This document shows, piece by piece, positions 6,959 through 58,997 of a DNA stretch of 64,000 bases. The position numbers and the translations under genes are program-made. Each line of letters begins with the position of its first letter. Positions within the stretch are counted from its first letter, which is position 1. Under the pieces are notes generated by a model, which was not told the DNA's origin, did no database searches, and saw nothing but the letters and a program-made list of their open reading frames with translations. Source of the DNA: Mya arenaria (lineage: Eukaryota; Mollusca; Bivalvia; Myida; Myidae); NCBI RefSeq assembly GCF_026914265.1, contig NC_069127.1, forward strand, positions 23,574,637-23,638,636, given 5' to 3'.

Positions 6959-9900
6959 TTAGTCGGAGTCCGAACCAGTTCGTGCCTTCTTTCTTGAAGC
7001 GAGGTTCGATATACCTTGAGTGCACCGTCGCTTTTTCCCACAGTTGGAATCATACTTAGTTCTTTGTGTGTCAATAGTTGAATCAATGTTCTCCAGACTG
7101 ACTACACATTTCATCTGAAACCTCTTTTTATCACAGTCAATATTACTTGCATCTGTAGCATCACTAGCAAATGTGGATATAGTTGCGGTATTCACTGTGC
7201 CATCAGAGGCACCGTTGTTCGTATCATTAGGCGTTTCTTTTGAGCATTTTTTGTTCACACAGACATTACTTCTAGAAAACACTGATTCGCAAGTACTAGA
7301 ATCCTTTGGATCCGATAAAATACATTCCACACCTTCTACCATCCTTTTGTCCGCCGTTGGATTGAAATCTCTATTCATAGCTCTGGTCACCTGACTGATA
7401 CTACCAATCATATTTAAAATAACATATGTCTTCACAACAACCGAGTGGCAGCTAAACACACTAAAAGCTGGAACTAAGACAACAAACACTTTGAAGCAGC
7501 CCTTCTGCATAAAAGAACAGTCTTCTACCAATGGCCTATGATATTTATCCACCGGCAAAAATACTAAGAGAATATTTCCATCTCTGTCTTGAGCACTGAC
7601 AACTTGTGGACAAAATTTTCCCTTTATACAACTAGGTACTTGTAGTTGCTTCCATTGTTCCCGTGCACAATCACTCATCTTTACTGATGCAGCATGCAAA
7701 TCGTACCTAAATCCACCCTTTATTTCCTGGTCTTGTCTACGCTCGATAATAAGTAAGGGTTCCGTCAATTGCGTTTCACTTGGGAGTTGTACTGTTTTGG
7801 CGCGTTGTACTGTTTTGGTGCAACTCTTAAATGCCTTTACCATTATTTTATTATCATCGAACTTTATACAGTTGATGACTTGTCTGCAACGGCATTTAAT
7901 CAACTTCATCATTTGTCTCAATAACATTTCACTCTTATTCATGGTCATAAGTGACCAACTCCGCTCATGAAGTCTATGCAAGGATGTGAAGGAGTCGAGT
8001 GTTACAGGGTACAAAATGTCTGAGAAAGCATACTGAAACTCTGAGATAGGTACCTTGTCCATCAATTCAGCCATTACATCTGGTTTAAAAAATGCGCCAA
8101 CTATTAAAAAGTGACTTCTATACTTTTCATTCGATACTTCATAGTACCAATCCAAAGCAAAGTCATTTTCACCACTTACACAAGCACTCAATAACAAATC
8201 CGCTTCTTCTAAAACCTGAGATGTGGTCGAATAATTGTCCAAGGGCTTTAACCACCATGGTGAGATATCATGTGGGCGAAATATATCAAAGCCATGACAA
8301 TTCTCTTTTAAGGCATCTTGACTCGTTAATTTCAGAGACATGTTTTTGCCCTTGCTTGCATTGTTCTGCGATGAACGCCTTAACAAGTTGTCTGTATGTT
8401 TAACCCGTTCAGCTTCACTGTGGCTTTCAAAACCGTACAAATTTGGTTCATGAGTTGATTCCCTAGAAGGTGTACATTTCACATCATCAGTTATATTGTC
8501 TGATGAAAATTCCTTTGGACTTTTGCCTTCAGTGACAGTGCTGTCTATCTTTGATTCGGACAAGAAATATCTACCAACAGGTTGATGGACTTTTAAACCA
8601 GATGTTTCAATATCGGGCCCAGTTTTAAGCGTTTTTCTGAGCAATTGCAGCGTTTCTCTATCTGAACAACTGTCACTACTTGAAATCAGTGTTTCATGAA
8701 CAGCTGACGCCAGATCAACTTGATTTTCATTACTGTTTTCAAAAGCAACCTCAACTCCTTCCAAAGATGTGTCTTCTGTTTTGCCATCTATAGCTCTGCT
8801 CACAGCACCAGTATCTTCAATCAAACTTAACACAGTGTAGGTTTTCTCGACAATTGAATAGCAATTGAACACGCTAAAAACTGGAACGAATACAATATAA
8901 ACCTTGGTACAGCCATTTTGCATAAAGCAGCAACCTTTGACCAATGGCCTATGAAATTTATCCACTGGAAGAAATATTAAGCGGATAGAGTCGCCTTTAT
9001 CTCGAGCACTGACAACTTGTGGACACATTGTTTTCTTTAGTCCTAATTTGGACAATCGTTTCCAGTTTTCCTGTAAAAAATCACTATTCTTTACCGATGC
9101 AAAATGCAAATTGTATCTCCATCCGCCTTGAATATTATTTTCTGCTCTACGTTCAACTATGAGTAAGGGTTCCAACAAATCTCCTCTTTCTGGAAATTGC
9201 ATTATTGTGCCTGGACAATCAACCATCACTTTATCTTCACTTAATTTAATATAAGAGAATACTTTCGACACATGCCAGGACCTTGACGTAATGTACTTTC
9301 TCAATAAAACTGCATGTTTATTTTCTGTCACTAGAAACCACTTCCGATGAAACATTCTAAACAACGATATCAACGACGATGAACTGAATAATCCAGGGTA
9401 AACCACTTCCGAGAAAACATACTGGAACTCAGAGCTTGACACCTTGTTCTTCAACAAAGCTAGAACATCAGGTTTATCAAATTTGTCAACTTTAAGCACT
9501 TGACTTTGATGTTTTTCACCCGATTCCTCAAACCACCAATCCAAAGCAAGCTCATGTCCATAATCTATACACACATTAAATAAAACCTCGTCTTCAAAGA
9601 AAACCTGGGATGTGTTCAATTCATTTAGCATTTGTAGTTTACCACGTTTCCAGATCTTAGGTGAGCGAAATATGCTAAAGTCTATCGATGTTGAAGTTTC
9701 TTTTGCATTTGCTTTGATGAGTCTGGAGGCAAAATTTGTACCCATGGTTTTTTTCTTCTGGTCCAAAGAAACCTTTGATGAACAGATATCTTTAGACTTA
9801 TCGAGTTGACTTGGTTTCGCAATCCCTTCAACAGATTTAGCAACTTTTCTAGTTGCATTTGGTATTTGTTTTTTGTCATTCGTTTCAGTAACCTGTTGTT

Positions 9901-11887
9901 GTTTAACAGTACCAGTACTTTCTGATCCCACTTGTTTTGTTTTTTGAAGAGTTTCAGTGTTATCATTGTTGCTGTAAGGTGATGACACTATAGCATGTGT
10001 TCTATGGAAAAACTTCATCGGATTTCTAAAAGAAACATCTTTTTCTACCAACATTGAACTTGTGTCCTGAATACTGTTAGCACAAGAGGTTTGCGAGTTT
10101 GCATAACTGTGACTGACAGCAGAAGTAGGCTGGGAAATTGCTACATTACATGGAGCAGATCTTGCCAACTTAATACAAGGTTTGTGAGTATAAACTTGAT
10201 TTGATTGGACTGTACAATTTCCACCAAGTGAAACAAGTTGTGAGGTAATGCTTTTGGTAGGTAAAGTCGAAACTGGGTTGACCCATCGCAAATCAGATTT
10301 TGGTGAACGCGTAACTTCAATAACTGCTTTTGGTGGATCTCTTGCTGAATGGACTGTTGAAGTACTGCGCGGACTGGTAAGTAAGTATCCTAACAACTTT
10401 GGTCTCTGAAGGTTTTGTTGTGACGCATTACCCTTTGTAAATATATCATCAATGCGTGTAATGCGTGCACTATTGATATTTCTAGATGCAATTCTACTAG
10501 TACCAGGTATTTGGCTGTCTCCTGATGATGCTGATGACACATCTTCAACATTTGAGGCTTCTGTTTCAGGAAAACTGGCTACACAACCTACATGTGACAT
10601 CATTGCACCTTGACAGGAGACTGGCAATGCTTTTTTGGGTAGACGGTCAGCGTTAGATTCAGGGCATTGTTTTGTAAAACGTGTGGAAACTATTGCGTGT
10701 GGTGAATGTAAATAAATCGACGGTCCTGGCATTCTTGTGGGTTCATGTTGTTCTTGGAGCAGATCATTTGATACAAGAGGTGATTGTTCTTTTTTTACAG
10801 TTTCTTCACATGAAACCGATGGACTGACAGTGCCGTCAAGAGATGCGCATGTTTGGAAAGACCATGCTGTTTGTTGTAAAGCTGTGGACGTCTGGTTGGT
10901 TGGCACTAAAACGTTTCTATTACCAGTGTGTCCAGCCGTTGAATGTAGATTTCTCTGCTCTGAAAAAGGAATTGATGTTGGTTGATTTTTAAATGTAGAG
11001 TTTCCTTTCGTAGCCGAAGGAATGCCTTGCTCCAACAAGTATCTGATATTCGGGGTACCTGAACACCCTGTTAGTACTTTTGAAGTTTGTGTTCTAGGCT
11101 CTGATTCAATATCTGGTTTAACATCTTGTAATTCCTCACTAAGAGTTCTTACCATTCCAATTGAAAATATGGCCTTTGAATTGGTACTTTCTGGCTTAGG
11201 ATCAGATTTCAAATATTGAATAGCTCTGTTTGCACTGCAGCCTTCTTGATGAATGTCATTCAAGTCTTGTAGGTTCGGTTTAATATCAATAGCTGGTCCC
11301 TGATTAATTCCAAGGAAGTTATCCAATTCAGGTTTGATTTCAATATCTGATTCTTCATTGGTTCCATCAGTAAACCCATGAATGGTAACACTAGGGGAGT
11401 TTGGTCTGATATCCAGGTCAGAAAAAATAGAACTACTTTCTTGAGCAGTGTCACTATGATCATCACTTATATCTCTTCTTTCTTCTTTCATTACATCAAC
11501 ACTGCCAAACACCTCTGATTGTATAGCTCCAAGTGCATTTACATAGCCATTTGTCACACCTGGCATTTTGTCAAGCAGTTCAATGTTAGCATTGTCTTCT
11601 TTGGTCACTGTTAAACAATGATTATAAAAATTTGATGTAAAAAGATTTACACTTGCACCTGACAAAGTTCCAGGCTGATCAACGTTAACTAATCGCTCTG
11701 AATCAGTAACGGTTGTCTCTAATGGTTCAACTTTAAGCAAATTCAATCTCTGTCCATTTTCTGTGTTCTTAAATTGCTGGGAAATATTTGCGTAAAGATG
11801 AACAGGCCTGACATCGTCACACGCCGCCTGATGGGTTTCATTGTGTACGGTCTCACCAATGCGGAACAAATTCTTCTCCGACATCAT
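6959..11887 (-). CDS. Large probable nuclear protein with two copies of an unrecognised ~300-residue domain
   Basis: This is an uninterrupted 1,642-residue open frame; I do not recognise the family. Residues 1-740 are Ser/Thr/Gln-rich, low in hydrophobic order, and contain sumoylation-type motifs (LKVE 51, MKEE 133, IKPE 184, VKPD 256, VKKE 364). Residues about 738-1033 and 1201-1504 are diverged copies of one domain. Shared blocks are SEFQY.FS....YP, EPLLI.ERR, GG.RY.LH.ASVK.SD, CPQVVSA.D, FLPVDK.HRPLV, C.FMQ.GC.KV and FSVF.C.S. An acidic Ser-rich linker separates them. The C-terminus has a bipartite basic signal (KKRR 1618-1621, RKKAR 1632-1636), which suggests the nucleus. The first ATG (11887) lacks a purine at -3; the second (11884) has A there and may be the one used. 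An in-frame TGA precedes both. The length and internal domain duplication argue strongly for a real gene. The function is unknown. Confidence 0.85.
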   Translation of the reverse strand: MMSEKNLFRIGETVHNETHQAACDDVRPVHLYANISQQFKNTENGQRLNLLKVEPLETTVTDSERLVNVDQPGTLSGASVNLFTSNFYNHCLTVTKEDNANIELLDKMPGVTNGYVNALGAIQSEVFGSVDVMKEERRDISDDHSDTAQESSSIFSDLDIRPNSPSVTIHGFTDGTNEESDIEIKPELDNFLGINQGPAIDIKPNLQDLNDIHQEGCSANRAIQYLKSDPKPESTNSKAIFSIGMVRTLSEELQDVKPDIESEPRTQTSKVLTGCSGTPNIRYLLEQGIPSATKGNSTFKNQPTSIPFSEQRNLHSTAGHTGNRNVLVPTNQTSTALQQTAWSFQTCASLDGTVSPSVSCEETVKKEQSPLVSNDLLQEQHEPTRMPGPSIYLHSPHAIVSTRFTKQCPESNADRLPKKALPVSCQGAMMSHVGCVASFPETEASNVEDVSSASSGDSQIPGTSRIASRNINSARITRIDDIFTKGNASQQNLQRPKLLGYLLTSPRSTSTVHSARDPPKAVIEVTRSPKSDLRWVNPVSTLPTKSITSQLVSLGGNCTVQSNQVYTHKPCIKLARSAPCNVAISQPTSAVSHSYANSQTSCANSIQDTSSMLVEKDVSFRNPMKFFHRTHAIVSSPYSNNDNTETLQKTKQVGSESTGTVKQQQVTETNDKKQIPNATRKVAKSVEGIAKPSQLDKSKDICSSKVSLDQKKKTMGTNFASRLIKANAKETSTSIDFSIFRSPKIWKRGKLQMLNELNTSQVFFEDEVLFNVCIDYGHELALDWWFEESGEKHQSQVLKVDKFDKPDVLALLKNKVSSSEFQYVFSEVVYPGLFSSSSLISLFRMFHRKWFLVTENKHAVLLRKYITSRSWHVSKVFSYIKLSEDKVMVDCPGTIMQFPERGDLLEPLLIVERRAENNIQGGWRYNLHFASVKNSDFLQENWKRLSKLGLKKTMCPQVVSARDKGDSIRLIFLPVDKFHRPLVKGCCFMQNGCTKVYIVFVPVFSVFNCYSIVEKTYTVLSLIEDTGAVSRAIDGKTEDTSLEGVEVAFENSNENQVDLASAVHETLISSSDSCSDRETLQLLRKTLKTGPDIETSGLKVHQPVGRYFLSESKIDSTVTEGKSPKEFSSDNITDDVKCTPSRESTHEPNLYGFESHSEAERVKHTDNLLRRSSQNNASKGKNMSLKLTSQDALKENCHGFDIFRPHDISPWWLKPLDNYSTTSQVLEEADLLLSACVSGENDFALDWYYEVSNEKYRSHFLIVGAFFKPDVMAELMDKVPISEFQYAFSDILYPVTLDSFTSLHRLHERSWSLMTMNKSEMLLRQMMKLIKCRCRQVINCIKFDDNKIMVKAFKSCTKTVQRAKTVQLPSETQLTEPLLIIERRQDQEIKGGFRYDLHAASVKMSDCAREQWKQLQVPSCIKGKFCPQVVSAQDRDGNILLVFLPVDKYHRPLVEDCSFMQKGCFKVFVVLVPAFSVFSCHSVVVKTYVILNMIGSISQVTRAMNRDFNPTADKRMVEGVECILSDPKDSSTCESVFSRSNVCVNKKCSKETPNDTNNGASDGTVNTATISTFASDATDASNIDCDKKRFQMKCVVSLENIDSTIDTQRTKYDSNCGKKRRCTQGISNLASRKKARTGSDSD

Positions 11888-11892
11888 GTAAA

Positions 11893-11910
11893 TTAATCAG
11901 ATGACATCAT
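11893..11910 (-). promoter_or_regulatory. Five-codon uORF (MMSSD) ahead of the large gene
   Basis: An ATG-ATG pair opens a five-codon frame that ends in TAA five bases before the main ATG. It starts like the main protein (MMS), so the leader looks like a small local echo of the start region. Such a short uORF this close to the main start could lower or condition translation; that is inference from position only. Confidence 0.4.
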
Positions 11911-11925
11911 GGATGTTCAACGCCA

Positions 11926-11927
11926 CT
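11926..11927 (-). other. Likely 3' splice site of a 5'-UTR intron
   Basis: On the minus strand, ACATTTTTCAG lies 38 bases before the first ATG and has the form of a polypyrimidine tract plus acceptor. If used, the gene has an untranslated first exon further upstream (above 11.93 kb) and a single large coding exon. The upstream exon and promoter were not identified. Confidence 0.45.
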
Positions 11928-12141
11928 GAAAAATGTAATTTATAATATGTATGTACTAAACATTTAAATCCACACCTTTAACAAAATGAATGAGTTTTTT
12001 GTGTATGATAATGCAACAAGAGAATAAACTACATGTAACTCGACTATTGTCAAATACTGAAGTGTTTTAGAAATCAAATCACAACATTTTGTGTTTTTTC
12101 CCATATTTGTATACAAGGTCCAAATGTCATTGCTGTAGATT

Positions 12142-18509: not shown

Positions 18510-19890
18510 ACAAGATATGTTTGTCAAACATTATGCCCCCTGAGCGCCATGTTGTCGTGAATTTTTGGACAATTGAATAAAATATGCATGGACCGAAATT
18601 CCAGCTGAATTGACCTGTTGAGTCATCTACAGGTCACACCCACAACCTTCATGTCAAGCTTGACAGTCATGTGTGCAAGCATTACCCAGTTATCACTCTT
18701 AACCTGATGACTACAAAATCAGGGGTCATCTACTGATCACATCCAACCTTCATGTCAAGTTTGAGGGCCATAGGTGAAGGCATTGTTAAGTTATCACTCG
18801 TTTAAGGTCATTGTGACCTTCACCTTTGACCTGATGACTTCAAAATAACTAGTATGAGGTCCCTGGGTCAAAGCGTTCTCAAGTTATTGATCGGAAACCG
18901 TTTTTCATGTTAAGGTCACACTGACCTTGACCTTTGACCCACTGACCTCAAAATCAATAGGGTTCATCTGCTGGTCATGACCAATACACCTACCAAGTAT
19001 GAGGTTCCTGGGTCAAAGCGTTCTCAAGTTATTGATCGGAAACCGTTTTTCATATAAAGGTCACACTGACCTTGACCTTTGAACCACTGACCTCAAAATC
19101 AATAGGGTTCATCTGCTGGTGATGACCAATACACATACCAAGTATGAGGTCCCTCGGTCAAAGCGTTCTCAAGTTATTGATCGGAAACCATTTGGTATTC
19201 CGACCGACCGACAGACAGACAGACCGACCGACCGACCGACCGACCGACCGACATGTGCAAAACAATATACCCCACTTTTTTCAAAAGGGGGCATAAATAT
19301 CAGACTCTTGTACTTATTAGAAGGAAAAAATAAAATATGGACAATCAGAAAATCTTTTTTCAGCTTACAGTCACACTGACCTTGACCTTTGACCCACTGA
19401 CCTCAAAATCAATAGGGTTCATCTGCTGGTCATGACCAATAAGCCTACCTAGTATGAGGTCCCTGGGTCAAAGCGTTCTCAAGTTATTGATCGGAAACCG
19501 TTTTTCATGTTAAGGTCACACTGACCTTGACCTTTGACCCACTGACCTCAAAATCAATAGGGTTCATCTGCTGGTCATGACCAATAAGCCTACCTAGTAT
19601 GAGGTCCCTGGGTCAAAGCGTTCTCAAGTTATTGATCGGAAACCGTTTTTCATGTTAAGGTCACACTGACCTTGACCTTTGACCCACTGACCTCAAAATC
19701 AATAGGGTTCATCTGCTGGTGATGACCAATACACATACCAAGTATGAGGTCCCTCGGTCAAAGCGTTCTCAAGTTATTGATCGGAAACCATTTGGTATTC
19801 CGACCGACCGACAGACAGACAGACAGACAGACAGACCGACCGACATGTGCAAAACAATATACCCCACTTTTTTCAAAAGGGGGCATAATA
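18510..19890. repeat. Element with 145-bp tandem units and a recent 600-bp internal duplication
   Basis: Units carrying AAGGTCACACTGACCTTGAC start at 18912, 19057, 19512 and 19657 (145-bp period). The block from about 18901 to 19290 recurs at 19501-19890 almost base for base, an offset of exactly 600, so it is a recent duplication. Each end has a (CCGA/CAGA)n run (19201-19250, 19801-19843), then ACATGTGCAAAACAATATAC and CTTTTTTCAAAAGGGGGCAT. The open frames 19119-19379 and 19719-19973 are products of this repeat. Confidence 0.75.
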
Positions 19891-27455: not shown

Positions 27456-30400
27456 TTACTGCCAACGGTTGCGCGTATTACGAAGCTGACACAGAAGCGG
27501 TTTACGTAACCAGGCGCGTGCTTCCATGGCAACGTCTTCCCAGTCCCACGCGGTGTCGAACAGGCCGTGGTACATGTCGTTGTATGGATTGGTCGGGTCC
27601 ATTATGTACGGCGGGGATCTAAATAAAAATACAACAGATTGGTATTGGCAGATCATCTTAGTTCGTTAGATATGTACATTATGGAAGTTTATGAAGTTTA
27701 ATTATACGATAATGCGATATTTTTTTCGATGTCATTTGGAATTGTGTTGGCATGTGTGTTGGTTGGTAAAGGAACATCATCTTAGTCAGTTACATTTGTC
27801 GCGAACTCCGCGAATACTGTTTTTAAAACATTTATATCTTTGTATAATTGATAGTTCATGTGGAATATTATGTTAAATAATTATAACTTTGATCTTTGGT
27901 AGCTAAAAATAACGTATACTGTTTGTATTGCTCCGGTGTATTTTTTCGTCATGCCAGCTGCACTCTCACAGATTGAACGTTTAGACAACTTTTGTTTGTT
28001 TTTTTTTGTCTTGGAACGAGCCAATTTTTTCGAAAATGCATGTAAACTAGTTATATAAGACTGCTGACAAAAATTAGATCGCAGATTTTTATATTTAAGT
28101 TCAATAATGATGTTGTATGCTGTTGTATGCATTTTTCTTAAACCGTTACTAACGGTTTAAGCCATAAAACATTAATTTTCGAACGGAAATACGAAAATCT
28201 GCAATCTGATCTTTTGTCAGCAGTCTTATATCACTGGTTTGCAAATATTTAAGCAAAAATTAACTCATTCCAAGACCAACCTTAAAACAGTTGTCAAAAC
28301 GGTAAATCTGTGAGAGTTCAGCTTTAATCTTTTTGTTTACTTTATTTGTTTGCACCGTTGAGGTTTTACATAACGGCTCTCACCGGCGCCATTGCTCCGT
28401 TAGCATGTACTTCCATGTTTCCCGCAATCCTCCTGCATTTCATGTGTAGTTGGCGGGAATAATTAGTATATAAATCGGCGCGCAAGTTGTACCATAGAGA
28501 TCATTATAATTGGACCTACCGGACTTACATTTATCAGTTTATATTGGATTAAAAAGGTGTTTAAAATATATATTTGGACTTTTACTAAATATTGGTGGTT
28601 ATACAGAAATATACCTTTGTGGCTAATTTTGTGTACGAATAAAAGGGAAATTCAAGTAAGAACAAATTCTAAATGTGTTTTGGGGATCTCTCAACTCCGG
28701 TGTGGCAAGTTCGGGGCCTAATAAAATGAAACTTCTCCACAACATTATGGAAATGTATGAATTGTTTGATTATACTTTTGTGATGTAATTTGAAATTGTG
28801 TTCGAATGAGTGCGGACGTGCATACTGTTTCGCACCTAGGACCAATTAGGCTACGTGCCAGTCAACTGTGGCTATATACAGGGGCGTAGCTAGCCTCTTT
28901 TCATGTCGATTCATAATTGTGCTTAGGGGGATTCATTCTGAGGTTTCTGGGGTGTTTTCTTTTGTACTGGAAAATGGATTTTTTTAGGATTATGTAGTCA
29001 AGTACGCATACTGCAACTTCCGCTGATTTGCTTAGATTGTTTTTGTCAGAATCATGTGGATTCAGCCGCGTACTCGCGTATAGGCTGCTACGCGCCTGAA
29101 TTATGAATTACCTTATCCTTAAAAGTCTTGAGGAGTACTTCATCTGATCAGGAAATGTTGCCTTCAGCTGCTGGTGCTCCACCAACAACGTCAGCACCGC
29201 GTGCAGAGCATGTGCCATGTTAAAACTTTCCGGTTTGCCAGCTTGGTTCCACGCATGTAAGATAACCAACTCCAGTGTGTATGAACTAGGCCACTTCCTG
29301 TTTTTGACTGACTACAATTTCAAACAAAATCTATATAAGAGTTTTTCGGAGAAAAAAATGGTATTCCGGGGTTAGAATGATTCTTCATCTACGGAATAAA
29401 TTGTTTTCCCTCTTGTGGCGGGGTTCCCATATATATAATATTCACTTTTTTTCTCGTAAAATGTTAGGATTCGCTTGGATGCACACTGTTTTACACATTA
29501 TTAAACGTTGTATTTATAAAACTACATGTATACACAAATAGTGATGTACACACATGTTTTGTAAAACGCATGGTCTTCGTTATTGGTAACCATTGGCCTG
29601 TCCTGTACTGTCCTTGCCCTTCATGGAACAAGTCGCTGCCCTTAATGCACTAGTCAATTGCACCACGCCCCCCCCCCACACCTGGAAGTTAAAAACACGG
29701 CCCATTTCCCCGGCTATACCCGGTATACCCCTGACCTGGGGCAGGGGGGGGGTAGTTACAATTGACTGGTGCATAATAATACCTTCATTTTGACGTCCTC
29801 CCAGTATTTTATAATGCGAATCAGGTCCTTGACCTTGGCGGGGAGAGCTTTGATGATCTCCACTTGCAGTGGTCCTAAGGTCACGGAATATTCGTGAATA
29901 TTGGCACCAGGGCGGGACATCTTGTCGTAGATTTCTTTTGGTATAACACCTGGAGGGTACAGATATATAGTTTAAAACAAACACACAGCAATCAAAATCG
30001 TAAAACAAAATTACACTATGCGTCTAACCTCGTAACCGCATGTCACCCCCGAGGCAACTATTACTATTATCATTCTTTGCCGAAAATAGCTGAGAGTAAT
30101 CCGATTGATAATTATACAACAAAAGAAGAAGTAGAAGAAGAAGAAGAAGAAGAAAAAGAAGAAGAAGAAGAAGAAGAAGAAGAAGAAGAAGAAGAAGAAG
30201 AAGAAGAAGAAGAAGGAAGAAGAAGGAGAAGGAGAAAAATGTTATTAGTGATATTTCTGCGGTTAATCACCTTAAATAAAATTTATACCGATTTCGAGCA
30301 GATCAACAGCTGGAAGAATGTCCACCGACTGTGTGACGCCCCCTCCCGTGAGCTCCACCTGGACGGAGTAACTTGTGACCCTCTCCAGGCGCGCTTCTCC

Positions 30401-30871
30401 GTATCTCACTAGGTAGGTCTGGAGTTCGGCTAGGAGCGCCTTAATGTCCTTGAGCAAGGCTTCAACGTCGGTGTACGCCGCTAACATCAGCACGAGGTCT
30501 ATGTCCGACTTTCCACGGACCGCTGTGCCCTTTCCCAATGACCCAGACTAATCGTGGTGTGGAAAAATGCAAATAACTCACAAAACTGTGGATATGAATA
30601 TAAATAAATAAAAATCCCTATTTCTACACTTATTCTTTTTTACGGTATGCCGGTGTAACGTTGTAAACTGACCCCCATAGAATAATGACCCCCCGGTCAT
30701 TATTTTATATAGAATAATGACCCCTTTCTATAAAATACTGACACCCCTTATAAAATAATGACCCCCCGATTTTATCTATAAAATATTGACCCCCACCTAA
30801 CCTATTACTAACATACTCTATGTCATTTCAAGTCACTGTCGTGTTTCTATTGCTTATATTTGTTGTTGTTG

Positions 30872-39267: not shown

Positions 39268-41149
39268 CAGGGGCGTAGCTTGACGAAAATGTATGTGTAG
39301 GCCACGTTTTAGGGAGCCCGGGGACATCCTCCCCACCACCCGAAAATTTTGCTTAGCTAGGTGATTGTAGGTGCGTTTTGGCGTATATTTCGTTGTTGTA
39401 AAAACATTAAAGAAAGCAACAAAATCATTATGCTTTACCTTAAATTATTTGTGTACGTATTTTAGCTACAGAAGACAGGCCATAGAAGTAAAACATTGTT
39501 TTTATTAATTAAATTTCACTCAATATTGATGCATTTTGTTGCAAAAATCAAAGTTAATCATATGTGTATTTGCACAAACAATGCCATATATATATATTAT
39601 GTCGCTTTCTACTGCACAGTTGACTTTCCGGGATCATTAACAGAACTCTAGCTTCCGGCATTTTCGCGACGCAAACACATTGATGACATCTAAAATCATG
39701 CTCTTGTGGCTGTGGATTAGGGCCAAGTATCACAACCTGTCGCTTTTCATTGTCGTTTGCAGGAAGTTTTTTTCATTCGTTTCCTTCCACTAAACGACCT
39801 TTCAGAAGAGGCTGATGTAGGTGGCATAGTAAGAAGAACCTTGAGTATTGTAAATATGCTAGGATACAAGTCCTTGTTGGTCTGCTTCGTGGTCTCTTGT
39901 AGTCTAGATAAACTTGCGGCTGCGATGCTCCATCTCACATTCCATTCTGTTTTAAATGTGTCAAATGTTTTGTGGCAATCAGGGGCCTTAGCAGCATAAA
40001 TTGATGGCAGCATGTCGTCCTGCAAAATTTCCAGTTTTGGAGGCAATAAATGTTGTGCACTGTATCTGTCTTTGAAGACATTGTACAAAGGTTATTCTGA
40101 AGTAGTCAGATGGTGTTTGCATCTCAGGATTTGCTCTTTTTTGCTGTCGACCAACTTTTCTTGGCATTGATGGTTGAATGTCGAAGCCTGAGCTTATATC
40201 CGTTACTTTCATGTACAGTTCATTCTACACATCAGGATTAGCCCTCCAGTCATTGCACAATTTGAAAATGACGTTTGTTTCTTCAACAGCGTGTAGTAGA
40301 TCATTGCATTCCCTCTGAAGAAGTTTTGTCAGGTTCATGGTAGTACCCAATGTGTTGCGCCACTACAAGTGAGATAATGAATTCAAAGCGCAGTACAGCG
40401 GACAAATACTGGCCGGCCTTCTCGTCTCCGTCTTCATTAATAGTTTCAAGTGCGTGTACCACTACGAGGAACGCATTTTGGAACGTTTCGAGTGCGTCCA
40501 CACGACTGATTCATCGTGTCCCACGTAACGAGCGAAGCTTAGTGCGCTGGTTCATTTCCTCTTTCGTTTCGACTTCTCTAGAAAGCTCGTCCTGAAACGC
40601 TGCTAGACGATTGCTGAAAAATTGAACAAGAATCCAATGTCCTGAACTGTGTCCATCATAGTTCCGACACTCGGGTGGAAACTGGTACTGGAGGCATGAT
40701 TGCCAAGTTCTTTCTAGCAGTTGTTGTTTGGTATCTTTATCTATTGAAGTCAAAGTGAGACTATCGAAATCAGGATACGTAGGACTATGTTCGGCAATAT
40801 TGGCACCAGACCGTTTACAATTTCAAATAATAAAGCGCCTGCAAACTTATACTAAGCCGATTGGAATTGTTTAATGTAAGGCGTCAACGCGCAGTCTACT
40901 GGTATGCAACTTTCGATAAATTATATACGGAACATTAATGTCGTGTGAAAATTTAGAGCAAAGGAAAACGATATATTTGAAATACCAGGTTTCCGATATA
41001 TTAAAGCGCATTTGTCGGAATTTCATATTTTAGCTCCTCACCCTCCTATGCTTCAGTTTTTATTGCAGATTTGGCATTTATTTTTTTTCGGTTTTTTTGA
41101 AAAATGTGTAGGCCGCGGCCTACACGGCCTATAGGAAGCTACGCCCCTG
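39268..41149 (-). mobile_element. Decayed hAT transposon with transposase remnants
   Basis: The ends CAGGGGCGTAGCTT and AAGCTACGCCCCTG are inverted repeats typical of hAT. The flanking 8-mers GAGTATGT and TATAATGT match at five of eight positions. On the minus strand, three separate open blocks read as a ZMYM/P52rIPK-type hAT transposase: 40753-40511 (FPPECRNYDGHSSGHW), 40501-40301 (LSAVLRFEFIISLVV) and 40088-39747. The last holds the hAT C-terminal dimerisation motif (YPSIFTILKVLLTMPPTSAS then SERSFS). Frame changes and stops separate the blocks, so it is inactive. Confidence 0.85.

Positions 41150-46557: not shown

Positions 46558-58997
<12,440 letters not shown>

Follow-up and report, generated by a model that had tools for sequence, protein, structure and literature searches.

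A repeated domain without a named family in three tandem genes of the soft-shell clam Mya arenaria

Results

The window, a 64-kb stretch of the soft-shell clam genome, carries on its minus strand a gene, here called pC, whose reading frame runs from an ATG at 11887 to a stop codon at 6959-6961 and encodes 1,642 residues with no internal stop (Table 1). The next-longest open frame in the window has 177 codons, and in a first-order Markov control (30 sequences of 64 kb each) the longest frame did not exceed 188 codons. A first-pass annotation of this DNA had described the gene as an uninterrupted 4.9-kb exon. This holds for the coding sequence, which forms one exon, but probably not for the gene as a whole, which is likely to have an intron 5' of the ATG: in all three paralogues (pA, pB and pC, see below) the sequence ATTTTTCAG or ATTTTACAG, which resembles a splice acceptor, precedes the ATG at the aligned position. 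In pC, where 38 bases separate the putative acceptor from the ATG, an in-frame TGA (11897-11899) stands between the two and the open frame starts at 11896, so that the coding part is a single exon and the intron, which probably exists upstream of it, would fall in the 5' UTR. The stop is also present there in pB, whose open frame starts just 5' of the first ATG; in pA the open frame continues upstream beyond the acceptor-like site, and a coding exon before that site is therefore possible in this gene. The acceptor-like site shared by all three genes suggests a 5' UTR intron. pC also has a five-codon upstream frame (11893-11910, minus strand, ATG at 11910), located 3' of the putative acceptor and 5' of the main ATG.

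Elsewhere in the window, a malic enzyme gene (46561-54366, minus strand) was recognized by four exon-like frames matching Pfam Malic_M and malic, three of them over the cut-off and one below; these frames have among them a satellite (49964-53487) in which a 56-base unit recurs about 63 times. A hAT transposase C-terminal dimerisation region was found at 39750-40091 (minus strand, E 2e-7). The exon-like frame at 30275-30547 (minus strand), which we take to be of oligoadenylate-synthase type, matched the nucleotidyltransferase family NTP_transf_2 weakly (E 0.0037, under the cut-off). At 18851-19193 and 19356-19793 there are 145-base units in tandem that carry AGGTCA-type half sites, and an AGGTCA-rich sequence 5' of pB matches the sequence 5' of pA (73% over 102 bases).

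Table 1. Features of pC and of its two paralogues. Positions are those of the window, except for those prefixed C6, which refer to contig 6.
Feature	Residues	Position	Strand	Basis
pC coding sequence, one open frame	1,642 + stop	6959..11887	-	frame reading
CAG of putative splice acceptor		11926..11928	-	alignment of the three paralogues
Head, probably disordered	1 to ~735	9683..11887	-	composition; omega 0.71-0.86
SUMO-consensus-like LKVE (LKFE in pB, without the lysine in pA)	51-54	11726..11737	-	motif, paralogue alignment
SUMO-consensus-like MKEE (VKEE in pB, VKVE in pA)	133-136	11480..11491	-	motif, paralogue alignment
SUMO-consensus-like IKPE (IKPE in pA, IKPY in pB)	184-187	11327..11338	-	motif, paralogue alignment
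SUMO-consensus-like VKKE	364-367	10787..10798	-	motif
Domain copy A	738-1033	8789..9676	-	self-alignment, seven-copy alignment
C-terminal two thirds of copy A, modelled alpha+beta unit	841-1035	8783..9367	-	AlphaFold2, pLDDT 68, pTM 0.72
Linker	1034-1200	8288..8788	-	head-like composition
Domain copy B	1201-1504	7376..8287	-	self-alignment, seven-copy alignment
Tail	1505-1642	6962..7375	-	paralogue comparison, composition
Basic C-terminus KKR ... RKKxRTxSxSD, NLS-like, kept in three paralogues		6962..7036	-	paralogue comparison
pA, two domain copies	1,666 (frame)	C6:23535745-23540742	same as pC	genome search
pB, three domain copies		C6:23558797-23564754	same as pC	genome search
Extra linker copy in pA head	~344-409 of the 1,666-residue frame		-	score against shuffles

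The genome (1.216 Gb in 18 contigs; the published soft-shell clam genome is given as 1.22 Gb and 17 chromosomes, PMC10663159) was searched with two single domain copies and with a majority sequence, and the best candidates were scored. pC proved to be one of three intact tandem paralogues lying on the same strand of contig 6 within about 51 kb, with two, three and two domain copies in pA, pB and pC, respectively, and all seven copies were recovered. The three queries yielded one, four and no further matches, all with E of 0.4 or weaker, and these five (E 0.4-8.8), every one of which contains stops, were taken as noise. Locus L031 is the least certain in this respect, as it reached 9.9 bits against the seven-copy profile, with an E value (computed over just the few loci retrieved) of 0.0035, just within the HMMER inclusion line; the four others did not exceed 6.8 bits. 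The head of the protein as sole query found, among the best candidates scored, the same three genes and no others. We regard pA, pB and pC as a tandem family of intact, clustered genes, to which the best candidates scored elsewhere in the genome add no further member. Two overlapping frames between pA and pB (locus L010, C6:23554433-23557854, plus strand) presumably belong to a non-LTR retrotransposon.

The first-pass annotation had noticed that residues of about 738-1033 and 1201-1504 of pC align along their length with strongly kept blocks. These two stretches (copies A and B of a domain of about 300 residues) share 46% identity over 289 columns (252 bits, E 1e-87), and wider stretches around them gave a local score of 663, whereas none of 300 shuffles scored above 51. 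In the seven-copy alignment each of the named blocks is present and holds invariant residues, although some letters vary, and such residues occur also in the first third of the domain (for example the S, E, F and Y of the SEFQY block). The duplication had further been called old, and the tree of the seven copies (midpoint root, remaining forks within both groups drawn open) agrees, as one split, with support of 100/99, has the first copy of each gene on one side and the four later copies on the other; among the latter, pB2 and pB3 are paired (99/97). Because the first copies split from the later ones, the simplest rooting would place a two-copy gene before the gene multiplication, and the internal duplication is thus most simply read as older than the gene duplications. 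The simplest reading of the third pB copy would be a gain after the gene duplications; dS (which, like dN, was computed by NG86 with our own script) is 0.18 between pB2 and pB3, compared with 0.45-0.83 for copies from different genes. In addition, the head of pA contains a second copy of the pre-domain linker with no domain behind it (score 147, maximum of 67 in 1,000 shuffles). The piece after it resembles the post-domain linker weakly (45, shuffle maximum 56), and the extra linker may be the scar of an excised domain copy.

Library searches gave no confident match of either copy to a named family, in line with the first-pass reading of a probably folded unit of no recognizable kind. No Pfam family passed its cut-off, the best matches being the Folliculin N-terminal family (PF11704, E 0.027) and ATP-grasp_4 (PF13535, E 0.048); over the whole protein these two reached 13.3 and 13.7 bits, short of their cut-offs of 23.3 and 27, and each of them matched one of the seven copies; membership in either was rejected, the gathering score not being reached. 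NCBIfam gave no curated-score match, PHROGs nothing better than E 0.096, PADLOC (defence systems), searched with two of the proteins, no match at E 1 or better, and PDB sequence searches short or chance-like matches only. In the PDB profile search, designed kelch-like SAKe proteins (E 0.00013 and 0.0019) were presumed to reflect a chance GG-x-R-Y motif match, because the best-matching stretch is 31 positions long and no stretch passes by itself, and there were weak matches to transposases over 53-55 positions (2ezk, E 0.032; 4fcy, E 0.42). Scans relying on short peptide patterns confirmed no relative in viral contigs (searched with the alignment and two single copies) or in prokaryote genomes, and membership in a virus or mobile-element family was not supported, as these scans of viral contigs, the PHROGs search and the comparison with viral models yielded no confirmed relative. 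No title on this domain family stood among the papers listed in literature searches, which for a family without a searchable name is no proof of absence. The domain can be called undescribed only in the sense that it is absent from the libraries searched (Pfam, NCBIfam, PHROGs, PADLOC and PDB).

Structure was predicted with AlphaFold2 for the third pB copy (314 residues; mean pLDDT 50, with only one of five models above 34) and for 195 residues of copy A (mean pLDDT 68, pTM 0.72; of the five models, two lie above 67 and the others at 32-47), two runs that are not independent because the same seven sequences were used. Both models present the same order of elements in the C-terminal two thirds, namely helices, two short strands, a long strand pair, a helix, a strand pair, two strands and helices. 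The expectation of similar predicted folds was thus borne out for this part of the domain and in different copies, but at modest pLDDT and with no resolved fold for the first third. Foldseek, which on models of this confidence may overlook true matches, found none at E <=0.001 in PDB (best 0.62 and 0.37) or among viral models (best 0.077).

By eye, the order EPLLI.ERR ... GGYRY ... CPQVV ... RPLVK.C recalls the Rel homology domain (PF00554; NF-kB/Rel/NFAT), whose signature we take to be P...E-R ... G-x-R-Y, followed by P-Q-V ... L-V-K-x-C. We compared the domain in both directions with the genome's own Rel-type loci (PF00554), of which two located elsewhere pass the Pfam cut-off and one, NFAT-like, falls below it, and with solved relatives from PDB. 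Only three of the seven copies scored against the Rel/NF-kB profile (0.1, -0.6 and -0.8 bits), and these scores were equalled or exceeded by 35, 65 and 89 of 300 shuffles each. In the reverse direction (Rel sequences against the domain profile), five of seven scored, at -2.8 to -3.6 bits, with 71-109 of 200 shuffles equal or better. The positive control, which applies to the forward direction only, was the genome's NFAT piece, with 8.8 bits against the Rel/NF-kB profile, a value reached by none of 500 shuffles. In hhalign comparisons nothing appeared at the Rel-like place. No solved Rel structure stood among the best 50 of 218 and the best 50 of 492 Foldseek matches to the models, which are of low or modest confidence. 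We rejected a diverged Rel homology domain because the copies did no better than shuffles in both directions, while the NFAT piece rose above them in the forward one.

The domain is fast-evolving under purifying selection. Copies from different genes have reached dN of 0.19-0.42 at the dS given above, and in six between-gene pairs omega was 0.42-0.55, every upper 95% bootstrap bound being below 1; point values over all 21 pairs, within-gene pairs included, were 0.41-0.68. When two pairs were split, omega was 0.44 and 0.38 in the C-terminal part compared with 0.74 and 0.59 in the N-terminal one, with overlapping bounds, and in one of the two N-terminal parts the upper bound of 1.32 allows neutrality, as does that of pB2/pB3 (0.68; 0.43-1.12). 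In the head, omega between paralogues was 0.71-0.86 (0.74-0.96 under a different alignment); of the three pairs, only pA/pC had an upper bound above 1 (1.05). The tails gave 0.51, 0.71 (pB/pC) and 1.10 (pA/pB), of which the last two are indistinct from 1. We regard the genes as real, related and under selection. Since three long frames were kept open despite much change and the domain is under purifying selection, they probably encode working, fast-changing proteins rather than relics.

The head of pC had been noted as looking disordered, and its composition points the same way, since order-promoting residues make up only 0.26 of the head (a cut of 729 residues), compared with 0.42-0.43 of the two domains, and S, P, Q, N, T and G make up 0.44 of it, compared with 0.27. 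Protein alignments of the heads show 18-20 runs of gaps for each pair, which, like the omega values above, is as expected of disordered sequence. Counted with a motif picked after the heads had been seen, SUMO-type motifs number 4, 5 and 4 in the three heads, where shuffles average 0.51-0.55 (P 0.0004-0.0026), pC having 4 against a mean of 0.55. At the other end of the protein, the basic C-terminus kept in the three paralogues, in which S/D residues come after the basic stretch, is a putative nuclear localisation signal.

Discussion

Taxonomically restricted, tandem-duplicated orphan gene families are a recognised kind, and the trio resembles them in its lack of library matches, its clustered intact copies and its fast evolution. 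It differs from them in its large repeated unit and in a copy number that varies among neighbouring genes, and lineage restriction is here only possible; we read pA, pB and pC as a real, fast-evolving and perhaps lineage-restricted family. As to the role of the proteins, the excess of SUMO-type motifs, the kept basic C-terminus and the repeated folded units on linkers suggest a nuclear, multivalent scaffold with a SUMO-motif head and repeated binding domains, which we put forward tentatively as the best reading. In such a protein, several motifs for SUMO-type attachment would be located in the long flexible head, flexible linkers would hold the two or three copies of a single folded alpha+beta domain, and the basic tail would take the protein to the nucleus. 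SUMO on the head might then regulate partners, and the repeated domain might bind one kind of ligand several times, with the copy number setting the avidity. The order of duplication, the nuclear location, the use of SUMO and ligand binding are what we infer, the SUMO and nuclear parts from short motifs; the Foldseek search of PDB and viral models returned no fold match to back the binding.

Quite possibly, if at somewhat less than an even chance, the domain belongs to a known fold or family from which it has diverged very far, such as a beta-sandwich that binds DNA or peptides, and the protein acts accordingly. The rate of change (dN 0.19-0.42 at dS 0.45-0.83) could mask its relatives, the models were built from only seven sequences, and the order of elements in both is beta-rich; yet Pfam holds no family over its cut-off, Foldseek gave no match at its threshold (even if models of such confidence may miss true ones) and the sole concrete candidate, the Rel homology domain, failed. 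We consider it rather unlikely that the domain is instead a globular unit with its own fold, restricted to clams or molluscs and copied within and between the genes of a fast-evolving family of nuclear regulators in which the number of binding units can be adjusted.

A conflict with pathogens or mates, in which the genes would encode fast-evolving immune or reproductive proteins and the repeated domain would be the recognition surface, would account for tandem genes, variable copy number and high omega. It sits poorly with a conserved C-terminus that is basic and nuclear-looking and with omega below 1 over the whole domain in between-gene pairs, and is in our opinion unlikely. The uninterrupted 4.9-kb coding frame, the orphan status, the presumed retrotransposon frame between two paralogues and the weak transposase profile matches (2ezk and 4fcy) would rather recall a domesticated virus or transposon protein, captured as a gene with one coding exon and then duplicated in tandem. 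The short-peptide-pattern scans of viral contigs and prokaryote genomes, however, confirmed no relative, PHROGs and viral models offered no match of weight (best E 0.096 in the former, no fold match in the latter), no further genome copies were found, and all three genes have an acceptor-like site 5' of the ATG, which together make this origin quite improbable.

As it stands, this is an orphan family without an assigned function. The soft-shell clam is also studied for transmissible cancer (PMC10663159), and an unnamed, nuclear-looking gene family in such an animal is worth naming. If it is true that the domain lacks relatives outside molluscs, it would be a clear-cut example of a large folded unit that originated in one lineage or diverged there past recognition, and the seven copies, whose grouping is known, would then make its change over time testable.
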